DNA from: a virus
Strand: one strand, 5' to 3'
DNA length: 64,000 bases
Virus record (IMG/VR): IMGVR_UViG_3300037264_006630
Coordinates: 120,944 to 184,943 of that record
Both the position numbers and the translations under genes were made by a program. Position 1 is the stretch's first letter. The number at the start of each line of letters is the position of its first letter. Shown here in pieces: positions 3,191 through 64,000 of this stretch. Under the pieces are notes generated by a model. The model made no database searches, was not told the DNA's origin, and worked only from the letters and a program-made list of their open reading frames with translations.

Positions 3191-4327
3191 ATGACGGTCG
3201 CAGCCAACGCCACGGACCCTCCAGCCCAGCCTGCCCCGCCGCCACCGGCGAGTGCGGCCACGGCCGATCCCCCATCGCCAGTGGCCGCGCCCATCCCGCC
3301 CGAGAGCCAGCCCCAGGTCGTCTTCGAGGTCCCGCCCGTCTCGCCGGTTGTCCCGGCAGTCGTGGTGGCGCCCGCGCCGACCGAGGTGACGCCACCGCCC
3401 CAAGTCGTCCCGCCTCCCACGCCATCGCCCGAGTCGCCCCCGGTCACTGCGGTTCCCGCCGCTCCCGATCCGGATCTCGACGAAGACGACGTGAAGGAGG
3501 GCGCGGTCGCCAAGGGCGATGTCCTGACCGTCCCCCGCAAGTCGTTCAACGGACGCATGTCGCGCGAGCGCCGCAAGGGACGCGAGGCCGCCGAAGAGAA
3601 GCTCCTCCAGCCAGTGCTGGCCGCGGGGTTCACCTCCTTCGCCGACGTTCTCGAGCACGCCACGAAGTACAAGCAGCAACAGGCCAAGGCCAAGGAGATC
3701 CCCGTGACCGTTCCCGCAGTCGTTCCCATCCCCGATCCCGCGGCCATCGCCGCGACCACCCAGCCGCCGGGCACGCCGCCGCCCCTGATCGCGCCCCCCC
3801 CGAGCGGTCAGCCGCCGGGCGACGGTCGCACCCTGTCGGCCGAGGAGCGCAAGAGCCAGCGGATGGCGCGCCAGCAGGCGGCGCAGGCCGAGGCCGATCG
3901 CAAGGCCGCGGTCGAGCGGTCCAACGCCGAAGTCGCCGCGGCCAAGGCCGAGACGGACCGCATCAAGGCGCGGACCACGATCGGCTACAAGCTGGCCGCC
4001 GAGCGCCCGGTCGACATCGAGTTCGCGCTCGCGCGCTACGACACCCACGTCGCCACCCTGGACGACGCCGGCAAGGCGGCGCTCGCCACCACCGACGGCT
4101 GGAACAAGTGGATGGCCGACTTCAAGAAGGCCAACCCGTTCCTCTTCGCCTCGCCAGCGCCGACGCAGGTCCCGGCCACCACCGGCCCCGTCGTCATCCC
4201 GCCCCCGGCCCCCGGCCCCGCCGCGGTCGGCGCGGTCGCGGGCGACGGTGCCAAGATCGACGCGCGCACCATGACCCCGGCGGCGTACGCGCAGCTCAAG
4301 CAGCAACGCGGCCTGGCCGCACGCTGA
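3191..4327 (+). CDS. putative scaffold/prohead assembly protein
   Basis: 378 residues directly upstream of the major capsid gene. The first 110 residues are proline/alanine-rich and disordered. A charged helical region follows (about 110-160, RRKGREAAEEK), then a second Pro-rich linker, then a long charged coiled-coil segment (about 215-270, repeated AxxEA and KAE). Disordered plus coiled-coil architecture and position fit a scaffolding protein. No protease motif is visible. It is preceded by a 163-bp gap (3028-3190) in which I see only a weak Shine-Dalgarno (GAAAGG). The function is inferred from context. Confidence 0.6.
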   Translation: MTVAANATDPPAQPAPPPPASAATADPPSPVAAPIPPESQPQVVFEVPPVSPVVPAVVVAPAPTEVTPPPQVVPPPTPSPESPPVTAVPAAPDPDLDEDDVKEGAVAKGDVLTVPRKSFNGRMSRERRKGREAAEEKLLQPVLAAGFTSFADVLEHATKYKQQQAKAKEIPVTVPAVVPIPDPAAIAATTQPPGTPPPLIAPPPSGQPPGDGRTLSAEERKSQRMARQQAAQAEADRKAAVERSNAEVAAAKAETDRIKARTTIGYKLAAERPVDIEFALARYDTHVATLDDAGKAALATTDGWNKWMADFKKANPFLFASPAPTQVPATTGPVVIPPPAPGPAAVGAVAGDGAKIDARTMTPAAYAQLKQQRGLAAR

Positions 4328-4334
4328 CCCGACC

Positions 4335-4363
4335 TTGCGCGCGGTGATTTCGCGCTCGTAGCC
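4335..4363 (+). promoter_or_regulatory. putative late promoter PL2 (capsid)
   Basis: TTGCGC at 4335-4340, 17-bp spacer, GTAGCC at 4358-4363. The spacer again ends in CGCGCTC as at PL1. It lies 38 bases upstream of the capsid start codon, as expected for a strong separate promoter of the most abundant virion protein. Confidence 0.55.
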
Positions 4364-9109: not shown

Positions 9110-11134
9110 ATGTCGTTCCTGTCTCGCTATCCCAACATGCCGTCGAACGACGTGCTCTCCGAGATCGAGGGCGTCGTCATCATCGACGGCACCGTGGCTG
9201 GGACGCCCCGCGGCGCCTCCACCGGCGTGGCCGCGTGCGTCGGCGAGTTCACCGACTGCACCTACGGCGTCGCCATCGACGCCAACGGCGTGGTCACCAC
9301 CAGCCCGCGGCCCGTCGAGATCGAGGGCGGCGACTTCGAGGAGCTCGTTGGTGGCTGGGACGAGACGATCGGCGAGTTCGGCGGCGATGGTGGGTCCGGC
9401 TTCCTCGCGTGCAAGAACAAGACGTTCGCGCGGCTCCTGGTCGTGCCGACCAACATCGCCAGCTCGCAGGGCGTGCGCCTGTACCGCGAGCTCCCCACCA
9501 ACCGCAGCGCGACCGACCCGACCCCGGTGGTCGAGATCTCGGGCGTCACCATCCGCGCTGGCACCGAGTTCAAGAGCGGCAACAACCGCGTCCGCCTCGC
9601 GGCGTCGGTGACCTTCCTCGGTTCGGCCGAGTACACCTCCGGCGTGGACGGCGCGATGACCGCGGCCGGCGCCCCGGCGGCGTTCCAGACCTTCAACTCG
9701 GCGGGCGGCCTCTTCACTACGTTCATCCGCCCCGACGGCAAGACCGGCGTCAAGGTCGGCGACATCTTGGTCCTGGGCGTGGTCGGCGGCGCTGGCGCGC
9801 TGGGCGCCAACGCGTACACCCTCCGCGTTCGCTCGGTCACCGGCGCCACGGCGCTCGTGGTCGAGAAGCTCGACGGAACCACCTTCGACTGGACCACCGG
9901 CACCGCGCAGCCGTGGCGCCTGTACGCGGGTGCGGTCGCGGACACCGGCCTGGAGACCCACGTCGGCACCCAGGCCGGCTACAAGATCCCGGCCCGCCCG
10001 CTCGACGCCACCATCGCGATCAACACCACCCTCACCCCCACCGTCCAGGCCGACCCGACCGCGCCCACCGCGGACAATTGGGCCCCGCTGTCCGGGCTCA
10101 AGCTGCGGTCGGCGACGGTCACCGGCATCGTCTACACCGCGACGGTGCAGGGCGTGAACGCGGTGAACGACGCGACGATCGACGCGCTCTACACGCTCGC
10201 CATCGCGGCGCTGCTCGAGGACAACGACCCGGTCAACCAGGTGACGACCATCTGGGCGGCGCGCTCGTCGCAGGGCATCCGCGACCAGCTCTCGTCCGCG
10301 GTCCGCAAGCGCTACGGCAACGGCCGCGGCATGCAGGCCCACTACTCGCCGGCGCTCGACGTGGTCTCCAAGACCGTGGCCCTGTCGAACACCTACCCCG
10401 GCGTCGGCGCCCTGCGATCGCGCGAGATGGCGTTCAACTGGCCGGGCGTGAAGACCTTCCTCAAGGAGGCGGTTGGCTTCTCGGTGAAGCGCGCCGACGG
10501 GACCTTCACGACGGACGGTCAGCTCGACACCACCTCGGACGGCTGGGCCGTGTCGGTGGCGTCGAGCCTGCCCCCGGAGAAGAACCCGGGCGAGGAGAGC
10601 GACGCGGTGCAGTCGGTGCTGGCGCCGTGGATCTCGCTCCAGACCGGCGTGGGCCCCGGCCTCGATCGCGGCTTCTACAAGCGCGCCAAGGCGCTCGGCA
10701 TGATGGCGCCGCGTATCAGCCGGTCGAACGGCGGGCGCATCCTCAACTACTTCGAGAGCGGCGTCACGGCGTCGATCAACGCGGCCAACGGCGAGACGGA
10801 GTACCGCGAGCGCCGGTTCTCCTTCTACGTGCAGGACTCGATGGCGGCGATCGTGGCGCCGTTCTCCAAGCAGGAGCTCACCAAGAAGCTCCAGGGCGAC
10901 ATGGTGTCGGCGGTCGCCGAGTGGCTCCAGGTGCTCAAGGACGACGGCCGTTGCGTGGACTTCACCATCGACGCGATCAGCGGCAACAACGCCAAGCTCA
11001 GGAAGCTGGGCATCTACGTGATCAAGGTCGTGGTCGAGATGAACTCCGACCTCCGAGTGGCGGTGCTCGACACCCGGGTGGGCGTGGGCGCCCTGCCCTC
11101 CACCGAGGTGTCGTTCAACCAGCGCGCGGCCTGA
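9110..11134 (+). CDS. tail sheath protein
   Basis: 674 residues, ATG preceded by CAAGGAG. The C-terminal 120 residues have the conserved sheath fold: RRFSFYVQDSMAAIVAPF followed by a helical stretch (LTKKLQGDMVSAVAEWLQ) and a terminal beta segment (VVVEMNSDL) that interlocks neighbouring subunits. The N-terminal half carries variable insertion domains exposed outside. It is followed, after a promoter, by the tube gene, the standard myovirus order. This makes the phage contractile-tailed. Confidence 0.9.
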   Translation: MSFLSRYPNMPSNDVLSEIEGVVIIDGTVAGTPRGASTGVAACVGEFTDCTYGVAIDANGVVTTSPRPVEIEGGDFEELVGGWDETIGEFGGDGGSGFLACKNKTFARLLVVPTNIASSQGVRLYRELPTNRSATDPTPVVEISGVTIRAGTEFKSGNNRVRLAASVTFLGSAEYTSGVDGAMTAAGAPAAFQTFNSAGGLFTTFIRPDGKTGVKVGDILVLGVVGGAGALGANAYTLRVRSVTGATALVVEKLDGTTFDWTTGTAQPWRLYAGAVADTGLETHVGTQAGYKIPARPLDATIAINTTLTPTVQADPTAPTADNWAPLSGLKLRSATVTGIVYTATVQGVNAVNDATIDALYTLAIAALLEDNDPVNQVTTIWAARSSQGIRDQLSSAVRKRYGNGRGMQAHYSPALDVVSKTVALSNTYPGVGALRSREMAFNWPGVKTFLKEAVGFSVKRADGTFTTDGQLDTTSDGWAVSVASSLPPEKNPGEESDAVQSVLAPWISLQTGVGPGLDRGFYKRAKALGMMAPRISRSNGGRILNYFESGVTASINAANGETEYRERRFSFYVQDSMAAIVAPFSKQELTKKLQGDMVSAVAEWLQVLKDDGRCVDFTIDAISGNNAKLRKLGIYVIKVVVEMNSDLRVAVLDTRVGVGALPSTEVSFNQRAA

Positions 11135-32472: not shown

Positions 32473-32475
32473 GCG

Positions 32476-32547
32476 TACCCCGGGCCGGGATCGAACCGAC
32501 GGCCTGTGCCTGGTAAGGGCCACGCTCTGCCTCTGAGCTACCGGGGC
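32476..32547 (-). tRNA. tRNA-Val (anticodon UAC)
   Basis: A 72-base cloverleaf reads leftward: acceptor GCCCCGG/CCGGGGT with a terminal G-U pair, D-stem GCTC/GAGC, T-arm GTCGG-TTCGATC-CCGGC, discriminator A, no encoded CCA. The loop CTTACCA gives anticodon UAC (32513-32515). The anticodon stem needs either two mismatches or one bulged G (GTG-G-CC against GGCAC), and base 37 is C instead of a purine, so decoding may be altered. Valine GTA/GTG codons are frequent in these genes. Confidence 0.8.
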
Positions 32548-37002: not shown

Positions 37003-37320
37003 GGCTTCCGTGGACGGCACGATCCACGCGAGACGCCGCAGGTGTGCAGGTCGAGTCCGTGACGCTCGGCTTCGTCGACCAGAGGGTCGATGTGGTGGAT
37101 GTTGTCCGAGGTCGCCCACAGGTCGATGAGACGTTGATGGATGACCTCGGCCGGTTCGTCCATCAACTCGACCACAACGCGGTAGCCCAGACCTCCGGCG
37201 CTGTGCGCGCAGGTTGTAGACGGCGAGCGTCGGGTACCCGAAGGCGAATGCTTCCGTGTGCTCGGGCGGGCTCGGCGATGGCTTGGGTGCGGATCGGTGC
37301 GCCATCGGATCAGCCTTCAT
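36999..37320 (-). pseudogene. hypothetical gene with +1 frame break
   Basis: The first frame starts at ATG 37320 (MKADPMAHRSAPKPS, later AFAFGYPTLAVYNLRAQ). It degenerates after 37205, while the neighbouring frame continues as SAGGLGYRVVVELMDEPAEV to the stop at 36999. The span is 322 bases, one more than a multiple of 3, consistent with one extra base. Alternatively the second part is its own 54-residue gene from ATG 37163. No family is recognised. Confidence 0.45.
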
Positions 37321-54161: not shown

Positions 54162-54298
54162 TCACCATGGGCAGCCTCGTCGCCGCGTTCGTCATCCTGA
54201 GCGTGGCCCCGTCGTCCGGCCCCTGGTCCATCGTGGCCGGTCTGGCTGTAGGCATCCTCTTCGTCGTCTCGGTCATGAGTGCGGCTCGCTGGCGATGA
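54158..54298 (+). CDS. small two-pass membrane protein
   Basis: 46 residues from GTG 54158 (GTGA overlap), coupled by ATGA to the HNH-like gene. Two hydrophobic segments (about 5-18 and 22-40) with a short turn and an Arg-rich end. No family is recognised. Confidence 0.5.
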   Translation: MITMGSLVAAFVILSVAPSSGPWSIVAGLAVGILFVVSVMSAARWR

Positions 54299-54837
54299 AG
54301 CGAACCGCCTTGAAACGTACCGCGTTGAAACGTACTGCGTGGAAGCGCGAGGGGTCGAAGCTCGCACCGGGCGGCGGGCTCAAGCGCAGCCCCATGAAGC
54401 GCGGCAAGGGCAACGGGTTCTCCACGTTCAAGACGACCCCTCGCGAGTACAAGGACCGTCTCCAGGCGAGGCGCGAGGCCAAGGGGCTGGCCGACGAGCC
54501 GTACCTCGAGTGGCTGCGCAAGCAGGTCTGCGGGCTGGCGGCCTGGGCGCTGTTGCAGTGGCAACTACACCGGGTCGTCATCGACATCGGGCCCTGCGGT
54601 GGCCGCATCGATCCAGACCACGAGCGCCACAACGTCGGCATGGGACAGACCGCGCCGGACGCCAGGGCGTGGAGTATTTGCAGGTGGCATCACGACGGTC
54701 GGCACGGCGACGCCAAGGGCTTCTGGGGCAGCATGACCGGCGCCGAGATCGTCGAGTTTATTGCCGAGCGCATCGACGAACACCGCGCCCGCTACCTGGC
54801 CGAGCTCGCCGCAGGCGGGCCCAACGGAGGCATGTGA
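54295..54837 (+). CDS. HNH-like nuclease with basic repeat tail
   Basis: 180 residues. The N-terminus is three near-identical KRTAxKR repeats encoded by 15-bp tandem copies (54298-54342). A C-terminal core has CGGRIDPDHERHN, then ICRWHHDGRHGD, a Cys/His HNH-type arrangement seen in phage proteins such as DUF968/Ref-like nucleases. The role is inferred as recombination-associated nuclease. GTGA-coupled to the SNF2 helicase. Confidence 0.65.
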   Translation: MKRTALKRTALKRTAWKREGSKLAPGGGLKRSPMKRGKGNGFSTFKTTPREYKDRLQARREAKGLADEPYLEWLRKQVCGLAAWALLQWQLHRVVIDIGPCGGRIDPDHERHNVGMGQTAPDARAWSICRWHHDGRHGDAKGFWGSMTGAEIVEFIAERIDEHRARYLAELAAGGPNGGM

Positions 54838-57800
54838 AGACCTACGGCACGGTGAAGTACAAGTCGGACCCGGGCGCGCGGCTCGGCTACTTCCACATCG
54901 TCTGCGAGCCCCACGTGGCGATGGTGCTGCGCCGCATCTTCGACGGTTCCAAGCGCGGCCGGGACAACGCGGTGGTGGTCTCCGGGACCGACGCCAACTG
55001 CCACACCCTCGAATGGGCGCTCATCAAGTACCCGATGGAGGTCGACACCCCGGTGTTGAAGCGCGGCGCCGATCGCCAGCGCCAGCGGATGGCGATGGTA
55101 GAAGAGGCGCGGTCGCCGGACTACGTGCCGCCGGTCTTCGACCTCGCGATCCCCTTGCGCGACTACCAGCGGGTGGCCGCCGACCTCGCGATCCGGTCCC
55201 GGGGGCTGCTTCTCGGAGACGACGTCGGCCTGGGCAAGGCCCAACCGATCGACGCGCTGGTCCTCACGCCGACGGGGTGGCGGGCCATTGGCGATCTCCG
55301 GGTTGGAGATCGGGTTGTCGACCCTGACGGTGGAGAAGCTGCGGTCACCGGCGTCTTCCCGCAGGGCGAGCGACAGGTCTACCGGGTAACGATCAAGGAT
55401 GGGACTTCGGCCGAGTCCTGCGAGGCGCATCTCTGGGGGGTCTATACCGCCAACGATCGCACCCGCGGTGGGTCGATGCGTGTGCTCGAGCTCAAGCAGA
55501 TCATGGGCGACTTGCGAGGCAAGGAGTGGAAGGGGTGGGCATCGAGCAAATGGTTCCTGCCGCTACCGGAACCGATTGTGTTCGATGCCGCTGGTGAGCG
55601 TCCGGTCGACCCGTACTTGCTCGGCGTCTTGATTGGCGACGGAGGGCTCTCGGGCGGCGCTGTAAACCTGATGAGCCCCGATGTGGAGATCGTTTCTCGC
55701 GTACGCGCCACCATTCCGGCTGGCACGACACTGATTGCTTGCGACGGACGTGAAGGGCACTACCGGGTGTCAAGGGGTAAGCCTGGTGGTGAGAATCCGC
55801 TGATGAACGCGCTACGCGACCTTGATCTGATGGGAAAGCTCTCGGTCGAGAAGCGAATCCCGGTTGCTTACCTGCGTGCGCCGGTTGCCGAACGTCTCGA
55901 GCTGCTACGCGGCCTCATGGATACCGACGGAGACTGCACGAAGCTCGGCGCCTGCATGTTCAACACGTCGTCGCCTGGGCTACGCGATGATGTGGTCGAT
56001 CTGGTCCGTGGGTTGGGGGGGATCGCCAGCATCTACGACCGGCCGGAGCCGAAGTTCACGCACAAGGGGGAGACGCGCATCGGGCAGCCAGCCTACCGCG
56101 TGAACGTGCGCCTGGCGGTCAACCCGTTTCACCTGATCAAGAAGGCGGAGCGCTGGCACAGGCCCAACATGGCACGAGCGATCCATTCGGTGGAGCCGAC
56201 CCGTCGAGTGGAGACGGTCTGCATCCGCGTCGCGAGCAAGCGCCATCTCTACATCACCGACGGTCACATCGTCACGCACAACACCGCTGAGTGCATCGCT
56301 ACCTTCGTGGTGCCCGACACGCTGCCGGCGATCGTCGTCACCCTGACGCACCTGACCGGGCAGTGGCAGCGCGAGGTCAACCGCTTCGCCCCGGCGCTTC
56401 GCGTCCACGTCATTCAACGAGTTCAAGCCTACCCGCTCGTCGACAACTACGGCTGGGAGGTCCACAAGGGCAAGCGTCGCTACGTGCGCAGCGGCATCGC
56501 CAAGATGCCCGACGTGATCATCCTCTCCTACAGCAAGCTCGTCGGCTGGGCCGACATGTTGATCAGTATCAACCCCGGGATGCTGGTCTTCGACGAGTGC
56601 CAGGAGCTTCGCACTGGTGCGACCGACGGCGGGTCAACGCACGGCTCGAAGAAGAACGACGCAGCCAAGGCGATTGCCTTCCGATCGCGTTATCGGGTCG
56701 GCGCCTCGGTGGGGCCGGACAGCATCATCGAGCTGCGCGGGAGCCTCTTCGGGGCCGGATGGGTCGGCCGGATGGAAGACGCGGTCACCATGGTCGCATC
56801 TGTCGTCGGTGCGCAGCGGCTTGCCGAGAGCGATTTCCGCGACGTGGCGATCCTCGGGATCGAGTCCCGGGGGTGGACGGGCAATGGCTTCGGGTGGAAG
56901 CGCGTCAGGAAGTTCATCGTCCACGAGTGCAACGAGCCCGTTCGGACGCTGCGCATCGCTGGGGATGGGCTCCTTCTGACCGATGATCACGACGTGTTCG
57001 TGGCGCGGCGCCAGGGTCGCCGGGACTACCACCCGGAGGTCATCACGCCGATCGCACAGGTTCCGGCCAAGAGCATCAACAAGGGCGACATTGTCCCGGT
57101 GGACGACGGAGCCGCGTGGGGCGGCAACACCGAACGGCTCATCGACACGGCGTCCATCCTCACCCATCTTGGTTGGGCGCAGGTCCCCGTCTACTTGGGC
57201 GGTTTGGATCGGCACATCCTGGGGGTGAAGCAGTACGAGTGGGCGAACTACAGGAAGCAGGGCACGTTCGGGCACTACCTGCCGGTGAGGCTCTACTTGC
57301 AACACCGCCACCGTCTGCCGGTTCCGCCGTTCATCTACCTCTCGAAATGCAAGCGGATCACCAAGATCGCGATGACGATCCGCTTGAGCGATTGGGCCTA
57401 CGTGCTGGGCTTCTTCCTCGGTGACGGGTGGCTCGATAAGGACACGACTCGCGTTTCTTTTGCGGTTGAGCTTTCGCGGAAGGACGACTTCATCGCGCGT
57501 CTACGGTTGCTGCCCGGCATCGACCTGGACCCCAAAGTCCGCGTGATGCCAGGAAAGTCAGTCGAGATACGGGTGTCGAACGTCCTGTTCGCCAGCGTGC
57601 TGCGGCACGCGATGGGTAAGCACCTCTGCCACGAGAAGACGATCCCTGGTGAGTGGATCGTGAGTTGGCCGGAGTCCGCGCGTCGCGAGTTGCTCCGAGG
57701 AATGCTCGAGTCCGACGGGCATGTTTCCGCGCGCGCAAACCGGCGTTGGTACGCTACGTCTTCGCAGAAGATGGCGCGGGCGATGCTGTCGCTCCTTCGG

Positions 57801-59048
57801 AGTCTAGGCATCATCGGTGGCATCGGAACGCGGAAGCCAGCGGCCGGCGGGGTGATACGCGGGCGGCAGATCGTGGGGAAGCGCACCGGCTACATGGTGC
57901 ATTGGTCAGCGTTCGCCGAAGCCGGCGACAACACCGGGTACAGAGGAGCACGCCGCGCCCTTCCCGGCACCGAGGGTCGCTTCAACGAGGGAGTGGTCCG
58001 CGGTGTCGAGTCGGCGCCAGTGCCAGCGCTGGTCTACGATCTCGAGATGGACGGGCACCCGTCGTTCGTCGCCAACGGCGCGTTGGTCCATAACAGCGCG
58101 ACCCCGATTTTCAATCTTGGCGGCGAGGTCTGGAACGTGATGGACGTGCTGTCGCCGGGCCTGCTCGGCGACAAGCAGGAGTTCTACACCGAGTGGTGTA
58201 CGCCGCAGGGCAACGGCAAGTACCTCGTCAACGACATCAACGCGCTGCGCGTCTATCTGACCGGCGAGGGCGCGATGCTGCGCCGCCGCCGCAAGGACGT
58301 GGGCCGCGAGTTGCCGCCCATGATGCGCAACTGGCAGACGGTCGAGCTCAACCGCAAGGGCCTCGACTCGATCAGCAGTCACGTCGCCGAGCTGGCGCGC
58401 GCGGTGCTCCGCGACGACATCGCTCCCTTCGCCAAGATGCAGGCGGCTGGCGAGCTCGACCGCCAACTCCGACAGGCCACCGGCGTGGCGAAGATCCCAA
58501 GCGTGCTGGCGTTCGTCGAGATGCTCATCCACGGCGCCGACGAGCCCGAGTTCGAGTCGGTCGTGGTCTTCGCTCACCACCACCTCGTCTTCGATGCGCT
58601 GCTCGAGGGCCTGACCAAGGCCGGCATCAAGGCGGCCAAGTTCACCGGCAAGCAGTCGAAGAAGGAGAAGGACGAGGCGCTTGACCGGTTCACCAACGGC
58701 GACCTCCAGGTCCTGCTCCTGGCCAACCGCGCCGGCGTCGGCATCGACGGCCTCCAGGCGGTGTGCAGCGTCGGCGTGGTCGCCGAGCTCGACTGGTCGC
58801 CGGGCGTTCACCTCCAGAACGAGGGTCGGCTCAACCGCGACGGCCAGGAGGAGAACGTCGTCTTCTACTACCTCGTCTCCGATGAGGGCAGCGATCCGGT
58901 GGTGCGCGACGTGCTGGGCATCAAGGAGAGCCAGCGCCACGGCCTGGTCGATGGCGACCTGGGCGACACCAGCGACGAGCCGCCGGTGGACCTGAACCGC
59001 ATGCGGAAGATGGCGCAAGCCTACCTCGACAAGCACAAGGTGAAGTGA
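54834..59048 (+). CDS. SNF2-like helicase with two inteins
   Basis: 1404 residues from GTG 54834, GTGA-coupled. With inteins removed (348 and 463 residues) the mature protein is 593 residues. Motif Q/I GDDVGLGK-T (split by intein 1), motif Ia VVTLTHLTGQ, motif II VFDECQEL, motif III GA-SATPIF (split by intein 2), motif V ANRAGVGID and motif VI NEGRLNRDGQ are all visible, so the ATPase core is intact only after splicing. It may remodel protein-DNA complexes during replication. Ends by TGATG overlap with the next gene. Confidence 0.9.
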   Translation: MKTYGTVKYKSDPGARLGYFHIVCEPHVAMVLRRIFDGSKRGRDNAVVVSGTDANCHTLEWALIKYPMEVDTPVLKRGADRQRQRMAMVEEARSPDYVPPVFDLAIPLRDYQRVAADLAIRSRGLLLGDDVGLGKAQPIDALVLTPTGWRAIGDLRVGDRVVDPDGGEAAVTGVFPQGERQVYRVTIKDGTSAESCEAHLWGVYTANDRTRGGSMRVLELKQIMGDLRGKEWKGWASSKWFLPLPEPIVFDAAGERPVDPYLLGVLIGDGGLSGGAVNLMSPDVEIVSRVRATIPAGTTLIACDGREGHYRVSRGKPGGENPLMNALRDLDLMGKLSVEKRIPVAYLRAPVAERLELLRGLMDTDGDCTKLGACMFNTSSPGLRDDVVDLVRGLGGIASIYDRPEPKFTHKGETRIGQPAYRVNVRLAVNPFHLIKKAERWHRPNMARAIHSVEPTRRVETVCIRVASKRHLYITDGHIVTHNTAECIATFVVPDTLPAIVVTLTHLTGQWQREVNRFAPALRVHVIQRVQAYPLVDNYGWEVHKGKRRYVRSGIAKMPDVIILSYSKLVGWADMLISINPGMLVFDECQELRTGATDGGSTHGSKKNDAAKAIAFRSRYRVGASVGPDSIIELRGSLFGAGWVGRMEDAVTMVASVVGAQRLAESDFRDVAILGIESRGWTGNGFGWKRVRKFIVHECNEPVRTLRIAGDGLLLTDDHDVFVARRQGRRDYHPEVITPIAQVPAKSINKGDIVPVDDGAAWGGNTERLIDTASILTHLGWAQVPVYLGGLDRHILGVKQYEWANYRKQGTFGHYLPVRLYLQHRHRLPVPPFIYLSKCKRITKIAMTIRLSDWAYVLGFFLGDGWLDKDTTRVSFAVELSRKDDFIARLRLLPGIDLDPKVRVMPGKSVEIRVSNVLFASVLRHAMGKHLCHEKTIPGEWIVSWPESARRELLRGMLESDGHVSARANRRWYATSSQKMARAMLSLLRSLGIIGGIGTRKPAAGGVIRGRQIVGKRTGYMVHWSAFAEAGDNTGYRGARRALPGTEGRFNEGVVRGVESAPVPALVYDLEMDGHPSFVANGALVHNSATPIFNLGGEVWNVMDVLSPGLLGDKQEFYTEWCTPQGNGKYLVNDINALRVYLTGEGAMLRRRRKDVGRELPPMMRNWQTVELNRKGLDSISSHVAELARAVLRDDIAPFAKMQAAGELDRQLRQATGVAKIPSVLAFVEMLIHGADEPEFESVVVFAHHHLVFDALLEGLTKAGIKAAKFTGKQSKKEKDEALDRFTNGDLQVLLLANRAGVGIDGLQAVCSVGVVAELDWSPGVHLQNEGRLNRDGQEENVVFYYLVSDEGSDPVVRDVLGIKESQRHGLVDGDLGDTSDEPPVDLNRMRKMAQAYLDKHKVK
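55239..56282 (+). mobile_element. intein 1 in SNF2 P-loop, LAGLIDADG type, Ala1
   Basis: 348 residues (136-483), inserted between Lys and Thr of the Walker A motif. It starts with Ala (AQPIDALVLTPTGWRAIG), ends with VTHN and is followed by Thr as +1 residue. Starting with Ala instead of Cys/Ser makes it an Ala1-type intein that must skip the first acyl shift. A homing endonuclease is present: YLLGVLIGDGGLS and LLRGLMDTDGDC are the two LAGLIDADG motifs. Splicing block F/G RHLYITDGHIVTHN is intact. Confidence 0.85.
56706..58094 (+). mobile_element. intein 2 in SNF2 motif III, LAGLIDADG type, Ser1
   Basis: 463 residues (625-1087), between Ala and Ser of the SATP motif. Starts SVGPDSIIELRGS, ends ALVHN, +1 Ser. 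Two LAGLIDADG motifs, AYVLGFFLGDGWLD and LLRGMLESDGHVS, frame the endonuclease domain. Terminal block DLEMDGHPSFVANGALVHN is intact, so it should splice. Confidence 0.85.
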
Positions 59049-61277: not shown

Positions 61278-61396
61278 CCGTGGCGGACTCGGTCAAGACC
61301 GCGTGTCGAGGTGGCGCCGTCGTCGAGTCGATGCCGCTGGGTGACGGGGTCTGGTTCCACGGCCGCCGCGTCCATCTGCACCCGGAGGCGGCGTGA
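61274..61396 (+). CDS. small hypothetical protein
   Basis: 40 residues from GTG 61274, GTGA overlap on both sides (next start 61393). Read from the bases it begins MTVADSVKTACRGGAVVES. The double coupling supports translation. Unknown function. Confidence 0.45.
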   Translation: MTVADSVKTACRGGAVVESMPLGDGVWFHGRRVHLHPEAA

Positions 61397-61591
61397 CCTA
61401 CACGATCGGCAACGTGCTCGACGTGCTGCCCACGCTCGCCGCCGGCCGCTTTCCGTTGCTGCGTCACCTCGCCGCCGTATTGGGGGCTGCGCGCGTACCT
61501 GGACGGCGAGCAGGTCATCGTCCGTCGCGACCTGACGCCCGAGCAGCTCGCCTACGTCGAGGCCGAACTGAGGAAGGCGGGCTTGCTGTGA
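61393..61591 (+). pseudogene. N-terminal fragment of N-type methyltransferase, frameshifted
   Basis: Starts at GTG 61393 as MTYTIGNVLDVLPTLAAG, then the frame must shift +1 near 61446 to read RCCVTSPPYWGLRAYLDGEQ, the motif IV (TSPPY) of an N-type methyltransferase, ending at a stop at 61589. The span is 199 bases, one above a multiple of 3. The rest of the protein (motif I and C-terminus) is found from 62214, after an inserted HNH gene. Inactive as read, unless the extra base is an error. Confidence 0.65.
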
Positions 61592-62187
61592 AGATGATCG
61601 CCGTCGACGTTCTCGCGGCTGTGGACCCACTCGTGGCATCCGCGGCAGAGCGTCACCATGTTCGCGATGTCGAACCGCAGAGCGGGCGCCTCCGACCACG
61701 GCGCGATGTGGTGCGCGTGCAGGCTGCGCGGCCCGCGCTTCGGTGCGGCGCACCGACGGCACCGGAAGCCATCGCGCGCGTAGACTTCGCGCACGATCGC
61801 GGCCCACTCGCCGCTTGCGTAGATGCGCTGACGTTCGGGCGAACTGCCATCGCGGTAGCGCGGGTTGCTCGCGCCGGTGCGCCCGCTCATGCCGTTGCGC
61901 GCGCCGCGCAACCACGGCTTCGGCTTCGTCGCCGACTTGCTCAAACGCTCGCGCGTCGCGTCGCTGTGCCGATGCCCGAGCCACGGATTGCCGCGCCCGC
62001 CGAGCACGTAGTTGTCCGCGCCTCTGAGGTTCTGACCGCGTGGCCGCGTCGGGATCCCGAAGTCGCGCAGCTTGTCGTGGATCCGCTTCGGGTCGCGCCC
62101 GACGAGCGCGCCGATCTCGTACGTCGAGAGGCCGCGCGTCTCGTACTGATCGCGCAGCCAAACAGGGTCGAGATGGAGCGGCGCCAC
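61552..62187 (-). CDS. HNH homing endonuclease inserted in methyltransferase gene
   Basis: 211 residues from GTG 62187 on the minus strand. N-terminal helix-turn-helix (RGLSTYEIGALVGRDPKRIH) plus an HNH core with CRRCAAPKR, HAHHIAPWSE and TLCRGCHEW (about 145-195), typical of free-standing phage homing endonucleases. Its last 12 residues are antisense to the methyltransferase fragment, so the original insert end is near 61590. It is the only gene on this strand in the rightward region. Confidence 0.75.
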   Translation of the reverse strand: MAPLHLDPVWLRDQYETRGLSTYEIGALVGRDPKRIHDKLRDFGIPTRPRGQNLRGADNYVLGGRGNPWLGHRHSDATRERLSKSATKPKPWLRGARNGMSGRTGASNPRYRDGSSPERQRIYASGEWAAIVREVYARDGFRCRRCAAPKRGPRSLHAHHIAPWSEAPALRFDIANMVTLCRGCHEWVHSRENVDGDHLHSKPAFLSSAST

Positions 62188-62213
62188 GTCGCCATTGTAG
62201 CAAAGGCAGGCCG

Positions 62214-64000
62214 ATGACGAAGGTCTATCGTCGAGAGGAAATCCCGCCGCACCTGCTCGAATACTTCGAGCCGGCGAGGGCGATCGAGTTGGGGTCCGAG
62301 CCGACGCCGGCCGCGTACGTCGAGCGCATGGTCGCGGTGTTCCGCGAGGTGCGGCGCGTGCTCGCCGATGACGGCACCGCGTGGATCAATATCGGCGACA
62401 GCTACGCGGGATCGCGATGCGGCGAGCAGGGCGCGACCGGCGCGCTGACCGATCGCTCCGTCGAGAAGCAACGCGCGCGGATGCGACCTGGCGCCGTTCC
62501 CGGAAGCGGCGGACAGCAAGGCGGCGCGCGCAACCTCGACGGCCTCGGCCTCGTCGATGGCTGCAAGCCGAAGGATCTCGTCGGCATCCCGTGGCGCCTC
62601 GCCTTCGCGCTGCAAGCTGATGGGTGGTACCTGCGCTCGGACATCATCTGGTGCCTGTCCGGCGGCGAGTGGGTCTACGCGCGCGCAGAAGGGCGACATG
62701 CCGGTGATGGTCAAGGATCTCGTCCGGCTCGATCCGTCGACGGTCCGGCTGTGGAACGGCGAGAAGTGGACGCGCGTCCTCGGATGGAACGCGAGCGTGG
62801 ACACGTCCGAGCGCATCGAGATCACACTGCGATCGGGCGAGCGCATCGGCTGCACGGGCGGTCACCAGTGGCCGACGCAGCGCGGGAACGTCCGCGCGCG
62901 CGACCTCGCGATCGGCGACGTGATCGAGACGTGCGATTTGCCCGAGCCGAGCAACGCGACCGCGCCCGGTCACCTGTCGACGGATGCGTGTTGGCTCGCC
63001 GGGCTGTATCTCGCCGAGGGCAGCAGGTCGGGCGACAAGCTGCAACTGTCGCTGCACGCCGACGAGCGCCCGTGGTTCGATCGGATCGATGCCGTCGCGC
63101 GCCACTACGGCGGGTCGGCGTCGTACACCATCGACGGCAACAGCCTCACGGTCCGCATGTACGGGCGGATCCTCGTCGCGGTCATCGACTCGATCATCGG
63201 CGGCGCAACCGCCATCGACAAGCATCTGCGCGCCGAGGCGTGGCGACTGCCGAACACGCACCTTCGCGCCATCGCGCAGGGCTACCTCGACGGTGACGGC
63301 CACGACGACAAGGCGAACGGTCGGATCCGTCTCGGGTTCTGCCGCAACTACTCGCTCGAGCGCGACCTGCGCACGCTCGCGGCGCGACTCGGCGCGACGA
63401 TCACGCTCAACCCGACGACGGCGACGTACCAGGGCGGCACGCGTCCGACGTTCCGCGGCGAGTGGCGATGGTCGCGCAGCGGGCACCACAACGAACGCGA
63501 CCGCGGCGAGATCGTAGGCATCGGCCGCAGCAAGGCGCGGCACTTCTGGGACATCGGCGTCGAGGACGAGCCGCACCTGTTCGCGCTCGCGTCCGGCGTG
63601 CTCACCCACAACAGCAAGCCGAACCCGATGCCCGAGTCGGTGACGGACCGGCCGACGAAAGCGCACGAGTACGTCTTTTTGCTTTCCAAGTCGGCGCGGT
63701 ACTTCTACGACGCTGCGGCCATCGCGGAACCGGCGCTCGTCGGCAATCACCATCGGACCGTCCTCGACAACGCGACGAAGGCGACGCCGCCGGGCACGCC
63801 GCCGCACACCGGGTTGCGCACGACCGACGGCTCGACGCGCAACGCCCGCTCCGTGTGGACCATCGCATCGCAGCCGTACGCGGGCGCTCACTTCGCGACG
63901 ATGCCGCCCGCGCTTGCCGAGCGATGCATCCTCGCAGGTAGCGCGATGGGCGACGAGGTGCTCGATCCGTTCCTCGGGTCGGGTACCACCGGCATGGTCG
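62214..64000 (+). pseudogene. C-terminal part of N-type methyltransferase, with intein and frame break (3' truncated by window)
   Basis: Restarts at ATG 62214 (GGCAGG upstream) as MTKVYRREEIPPHLLEYFEP, then IELGSEPTPAAYVERMVAVF and DIIW, a hallmark of phage N4/N6 methyltransferases. The intein 62652-63612 interrupts DIIW-SKPNPMPESV, which then continues to the motif I LDPFLGSGTTG at the window edge. The intein contains one extra base, so the flanking halves lie in different frames. A complete gene would need the N-terminal fragment at 61393 and a corrected base. 3' end lies beyond the window. Confidence 0.65.
62652..63612 (+). mobile_element. intein 3 in methyltransferase, LAGLIDADG type, frameshifted
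   Basis: 961 bases = 320 residues plus one extra base. Starts CLSGGEWVYAR; the frame changes in a GCGCGCGC tract near 62680, where +1 restores QKGDMPVMVKDL. Ends GVLTHN with Ser as +1 residue. LAGLIDADG motifs LAGLYLAEGSRS and IAQGYLDGDGHDD are both present in the restored frame. As read, it would not splice; an assembly or sequencing error in the GC repeat would also explain it. Confidence 0.75.

Follow-up and report, generated by a model that had tools for sequence, protein, structure and literature searches.

A phage DNA methyltransferase gene split by an HNH endonuclease gene, with a recurrent pair of terminal peptides that may serve in docking

In the uncultivated phage analysed here a DNA methyltransferase gene lies in two open reading frames (ORFs) that jointly keep the methyltransferase motifs, carry conserved extra ends and stand on either side of an HNH endonuclease gene. 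At a probability of roughly two in three, we read this as the work of gene-splitting homing elements that bring their own docking peptides and leave a two-chain methyltransferase. The mobile element would consist of an extra C-terminal peptide ("tail"), the HNH homing endonuclease gene and an extra N-terminal peptide ("head"), all housed in the methyltransferase gene. Its endonuclease would cut unsplit methyltransferase genes just past catalytic motif IV, and repair would copy in the whole insert, which would close the first half of the gene with the tail and a stop codon and reopen the second with a start codon of its own, followed by the head. Two chains would then make up the enzyme, the small one contributing the catalytic TSPPY and the large one the SAM-binding motif, and the tail (a strand and a helix) would dock with the head and hold the chains together, for which Aeh1 NrdA offers a precedent. 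Such docking would allow the element to be tolerated without an intron or an intein.

The window, that is the whole 64-kb stretch of DNA analysed, is the 3' end of a 184,943-base IMG/VR virus record with a genome GC content of 69%. The record is circular, because its last 127 bases are identical to its first 127 (an exact terminal repeat, window 63874-64000 and record 1-127); the repeat is plausibly a leftover of a short-read assembler with k = 127. Given this circularity, the methyltransferase gene is interrupted by an arbitrary record end: it crosses the join and stops at record base 252, 125 bases beyond it. A preliminary description had placed the gene at 61393-64000, and its start, a GTG at 61393, stands, but the gene ends beyond the join. 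The GTG overlaps the stop codon of a small ORF, which in turn follows a DNA polymerase sliding-clamp gene (PF00712/02767/02768). The sole tRNA gene within the window is a tRNA-Val(TAC) at 32475-32547 on the minus strand.

When joined, the methyltransferase pieces match PF01555 (N6_N4_Mtase) at E 7e-44, in agreement with the N-type methyltransferase of the preliminary description. The enzyme is of the beta type of N6/N4 methyltransferases, with an S/DPPY motif IV upstream and an FxGxGTT motif I downstream. The joined sequence shows 40-46% identity to phage methyltransferases across 95-100% of the length, and in isolate phages the same enzyme is encoded by one continuous gene. Both pieces of the window gene lie on the plus strand. 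The N-piece has a first part (VTYTIGNVLDVLPTLAAGRF, 61393-61452) and a second part (61451-61498) with catalytic motif IV, TSPPYW, at 61466-61483, followed by GLRAY; TSPPY is invariant across 12 aligned N-pieces. It closes with a tail of 30 residues (LDGEQVIVRRDLTPEQLAYVEAELRKAGLL, 61499-61591 with its stop at 61591, plus strand) that is absent from unsplit methyltransferases. On the minus strand, at 61552-62187, follows the HNH gene (211 aa; PF01844 HNH at E 5e-10, weak NUMOD3), the HNH domain of which is located at about 61618-61761. An antisense HNH gene splitting the methyltransferase at 61590-62205 had been proposed from the letters of the window, and both the arrangement and, approximately, the coordinates hold. 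The C-piece starts with an ATG at 62214, opens with the head (MTKVYRREEIPPHLLEYFEPAR, 62214-62279, plus strand), continues to the intein described below (AIELGSEPTPAAYVERM ... SDIIW, 62280-62651) and resumes beyond it with SKPNPMPES at 63613, running through 64000 to record base 252; its end carries motif I, the SAM-binding motif FLGSGTTGM (FLGSGTTGMV).

The same layout, an N-piece with TSPPY and tail, an HNH gene, and then a C-piece opening with a head, was found in 15 further distinct IMG/VR loci on environmental phage contigs (L031, L032, L096, L097, L098, L106, L113, L114, L116, L121, L102, L196, L200, L202 and L216), 16 with the window. L031 and L032, both with an antisense HNH gene, were found first, as IMG/VR relatives aligning to the window C-piece almost from its first residues; pattern searches for tail/head, HNH and the Cys loop brought in further loci. 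The splits fall at either of two sites, which lie some 14 codons from each other. Site 1 is GLRxY, followed by [QEP]xGLE or an equivalent (the window, L102, L196, L200, L202 and L216). Site 2 lies within a four-cysteine loop, between PDC and CGECYVC, with the exception of L114, in which the cysteines are absent; the unsplit form of this loop is seen in L207, L213 and L214. The two sites are distinct, because L216 is split at site 1 and has its four-cysteine loop intact. In most site-2 splits the N-piece keeps one cysteine and the C-piece the other three, so that the two chains might jointly form a metal site. In the sequence-related Thermus structure 2zie, both sites map to the loop that links the motif IV strand to the helix after it, where the structure would tolerate a break.

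The HNH gene is antisense in 10 of the 16 loci and sense in the remaining 6 (L102, L196, L200, L202, L216 and L114). Irrespective of orientation, the HNH proteins cluster by site, one lineage being found at site 1 and others at site 2, a match between lineage and site that looks as expected of homing. The window HNH gene is inverted, since the rest of its lineage, that of site 1, is in sense orientation. A single-sequence search returned no close relatives of the window HNH protein, and its similarity to isolate phages is restricted to the HNH domain. The gene has the features of a free-standing HNH homing endonuclease, namely an HNH domain, a weak NUMOD3 and, in relatives of its site-1 kin, empty sites (L091 and L081). 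The HNH genes show pN/pS values of 0.16-0.26.

These empty sites define the boundaries of the insert. Split L202 and unsplit L091 are identical at 83 of 93 nt up to GLR and at 100 of 120 from IGLE on, and between these points seven codons of L091 are swapped for about 750 bp in L202. Comparison of L200 with unsplit L081 gave the same right boundary. Judged by these two near-identical unsplit genes, tail, HNH gene and head form one insert. Descent of all split genes from one ancestor, as a single clade, was rejected in a tree test (p-AU 1.5e-63), a rejection to which recombination within the methyltransferase genes could add.

Among the genes found, tail and head are present solely in split ones, where the pair occurs at both sites and with several HNH lineages, whichever way the HNH gene points. 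The tail follows the consensus xVxLRxDLTxxxxxYVxxxLxxxG, then a stop codon, and the head xxIPxHLLxYFEPA. No known domain for either was found in Pfam, PHROGs or PDB sequences, and a tail profile run against the ORFs of about 190 loci gave nothing convincing beyond the split N-pieces. Scored against the site-2 profiles, site-1 heads reached 22-36 bits (best of 1800 shuffles, 8.9) and the window tail 27.5 bits (best shuffle, 11.7), whereas the tails of L196 and L202 scored no better than shuffles. The tails and heads of both sites are thus homologous, with all heads and the window tail beating the shuffles and some tails not. With pN/pS values of 0.18-0.34 over a GC range of 17-61%, the heads are, by this measure, under purifying selection at the protein level; the tails are more loosely conserved (0.30-0.78). 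In the antisense loci part of the tail conservation is shared, because the tail overlaps the 3' end of the HNH gene. That the tail is merely the shadow of an antisense HNH gene was rejected, since all six sense loci share tail and head. In an AlphaFold model of the N-piece the tail forms a short strand and a helix (residues 51-63) with a pLDDT of about 80-90; a structure model of the C-piece alone was poor (mean pLDDT 55).

The tail and head could instead be an ancestral insertion domain of a methyltransferase subfamily that was repeatedly invaded by HNH genes, with halves that are functional or not. We regard this as unlikely. The end of the tail and the start of the head do read as one continuous segment in some loci (e.g. 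L098), and one tail/head family is common to several HNH lineages. The near-identical unsplit relatives, however, have neither tail nor head, the insertion sites are two, and the split genes are not a clade. A contiguous tail and head was found in none of the loci from three viral scans, in none of 84,980 bacterial and archaeal genomes and in no isolate phage, by scans with degenerate patterns that diverged forms could escape.

Further side observations concern the methyltransferase family. A sense HNH gene seems to interrupt one member, at L127:113-2327, at a third position immediately upstream of the SAM-binding motif. L102 has a second, truncated methyltransferase start (MNRVFFGDCRDTMRTLIADG, 4279-4347) downstream of its split gene. 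Two pairs of phage contigs that are >98% identical differ within this gene: L098 and L099 in a short stretch after NLGDSY (about 1222-1336), and L102 and L103 in the central region, a pattern that in both cases resembles the exchange of a target-recognition segment.

The window copy itself is damaged. Two +1 frame breaks had been reported near 61446 and 62682, and we confirm both, at ~61450 and ~62680. The first (61445-61456, plus strand) falls between the codons of ...AAGRF and RCCVTSPPYW; the first 20 codons of the N-piece are in another frame than the catalytic TSPPYWGLRAY part, and downstream coding continues in the +1 frame, whereas homologues continue LP...xCCVTSPPYW in one frame and the N-pieces of the other split loci are read in one frame without a break. 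The second (62675-62684, plus strand) lies in block A of the intein and was independently detected by a codon-usage frame scan; the inteins of L217, L219 and L220 have a single frame through this position. These breaks probably make the window methyltransferase inactive, and because the relatives' inteins read through in one frame the inactivation looks recent; a recent loss is also the most likely reading given that all other parts are still open and the HNH ORF is intact. The breaks may be real mutations, sequence errors or recoding. The scan also listed, elsewhere in the genome, about nine candidate breaks, some of which may be false calls, so that sequence error or a decaying genome may lie behind the two in the methyltransferase. 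These candidates, at 10763, 20785, 21018, 21306, 41679, 51796, 85053, 96378 (minus strand) and 108085 of record C1 and at 37206 (minus strand) of the window, are nearly all in the +1 direction, and no shared motif was seen.

Simple decay, in which the HNH insertion and the frame breaks are all inactivating and the pieces are pseudogenes, draws on this damaged copy and on the other candidate breaks of the scan, and may apply to the window copy alone. As an account of the split genes in general we consider it improbable. At the other loci the halves still have their catalytic motifs and their start and stop codons and are under purifying selection (pN/pS of the methyltransferase halves, 0.36-0.69), and the head peptides are conserved. 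All catalytic motifs are held jointly by the two ORFs, with the endonuclease gene between them and no intron, the frames being broken in the window. On the strength of these comparisons, the HNH split of the methyltransferase is not random damage, and the recurrence of the layout suggests that the peptides let the split halves still work together. The loss of function raised in the preliminary description therefore fits the two frame breaks of the window and not the HNH insertion, which is tolerated in relatives that keep both halves. Its alternative of a split gene is upheld in a stronger form, as the HNH split is found repeatedly, each half bearing a conserved extra peptide.

Phage group I introns commonly house HNH genes, and the methyltransferase halves lie on the same strand, so that an HNH gene within a self-splicing intron, with the methyltransferase joined as RNA, was also considered. 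This is very improbable. Rfam gave no match at the split in the window and 11 other loci at gathering thresholds, or at a permissive threshold in two of them; the HNH gene is found on either strand; and tail and head are conserved as codons, with a stop and a start codon. A group I or II intron-encoded endonuclease at the split was rejected on these Rfam results, and a split intein was rejected as no intein match was found in tail or head. Programmed frameshifting at both breaks as a means of regulating the enzyme is least credible, for although both breaks are +1, like most other candidates in the genome, a shared slippery motif is absent, the intein relatives and the N-pieces of the other split loci are in one frame, and the +1 excess may be a detection artefact in a genome of 69% GC.

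Genes in pieces through homing endonucleases are already known. Dassa et al. reportedly described in 2009 "fractured genes" that combine split inteins with free-standing endonucleases. The layout here is similar in that a free-standing endonuclease gene is flanked by gene halves, but the halves there are joined by split inteins, and the tail and head show no similarity to inteins. Assembly of Aeh1 NrdA is said, by Crona et al. in 2011, to proceed through element-derived interaction domains. As described in a review (PMC2988022), the HNH homing endonuclease gene mobE interrupts nrdA of Aeromonas phage Aeh1 (Friedrich et al. 2007), and the products of phage genes split through homing endonuclease insertion can come together as active enzymes. 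In that account, as here, a free-standing HNH gene divides an enzyme gene into two ORFs, the pieces carry extra terminal sequence, and the split involves no intron or intein. Our case differs in its DNA methyltransferase target, its 16 loci and two sites, its several HNH lineages in both orientations and the conserved tail/head pair that moves together with the insert; activity has been demonstrated for Aeh1 and is a prediction here. The review also lists T4 mobA, which accompanies a divided topoisomerase gene, and Aeromonas phages 25 and 44RR, in which gene 43 is split. In these too the host gene is in two coding pieces with a homing endonuclease gene; the target genes are other ones, and the passages of the review (PMC2988022) covered here record no tail/head family.

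Single two-piece phage enzymes formed after homing endonuclease insertion are thus known. On how such an element becomes harmless, the loci described here offer comparison material in the form of 16 natural splits at two sites, several endonuclease lineages, near-identical empty sites and a shared pair of peptides of ~20-30 residues. Among the papers covered, none was found to describe a recurrent, horizontally moving splitter with a conserved peptide pair of its own on a DNA methyltransferase. Evenly poised, in our judgement, is the wider proposal of a third lifestyle besides introns and inteins, in which a homing endonuclease gene travels with a portable two-part docking peptide for non-covalent assembly of the enzyme, as a diverse family (HNH lineages, orientations, two sites) across environmental phages. 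If the peptides dock, they would provide a small natural split-protein system and would account for the ability of free-standing endonuclease genes to reside in catalytic genes. Automatic annotation would call such split genes broken.

In the window phage an intein with a LAGLIDADG endonuclease has also entered the C-piece, besides the frame breaks that most likely inactivated the enzyme. The intein claimed in the preliminary description is real: it runs on the plus strand from Cys 62652 (IIW/CLSGG) to HN 63612 (THN/SKPNPMPES), with a LAGLIDADG_3 match at E 4e-5 (about 63265-63450) and a sub-threshold Intein_splicing match. Cys1, HN followed by S/T/C, the Hint blocks and a site that is empty in relatives are all present. 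Four relatives have 52-70% identity, and all three examined lie at exactly the same site in the same gene family. L217, L219 and L220 carry window-like inteins at this position in unsplit methyltransferases, and L121, like the window, combines an HNH split with an intein at the window's intein site. The window intein resembles other phage LAGLIDADG inteins in being an ordinary Hint and LAGLIDADG element at a conserved motif of its host protein, but differs in that the first block and the remainder of the intein are in different frames; the single open frame through intein and exteins is lost at ~62680 and intact in the relatives. The suggestion of a hotspot is well founded, as in many phages mobile elements have entered this family, HNH genes at two sites and inteins at one, and because the intein site is recurrent as well we regard the gene as a genuine mobile-element hotspot. 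Elsewhere in the window an SNF2-type helicase ORF (54279-59048, plus strand, 1589 aa) has two LAGLIDADG inteins inside, so that with the one in the methyltransferase the phage holds at least three.
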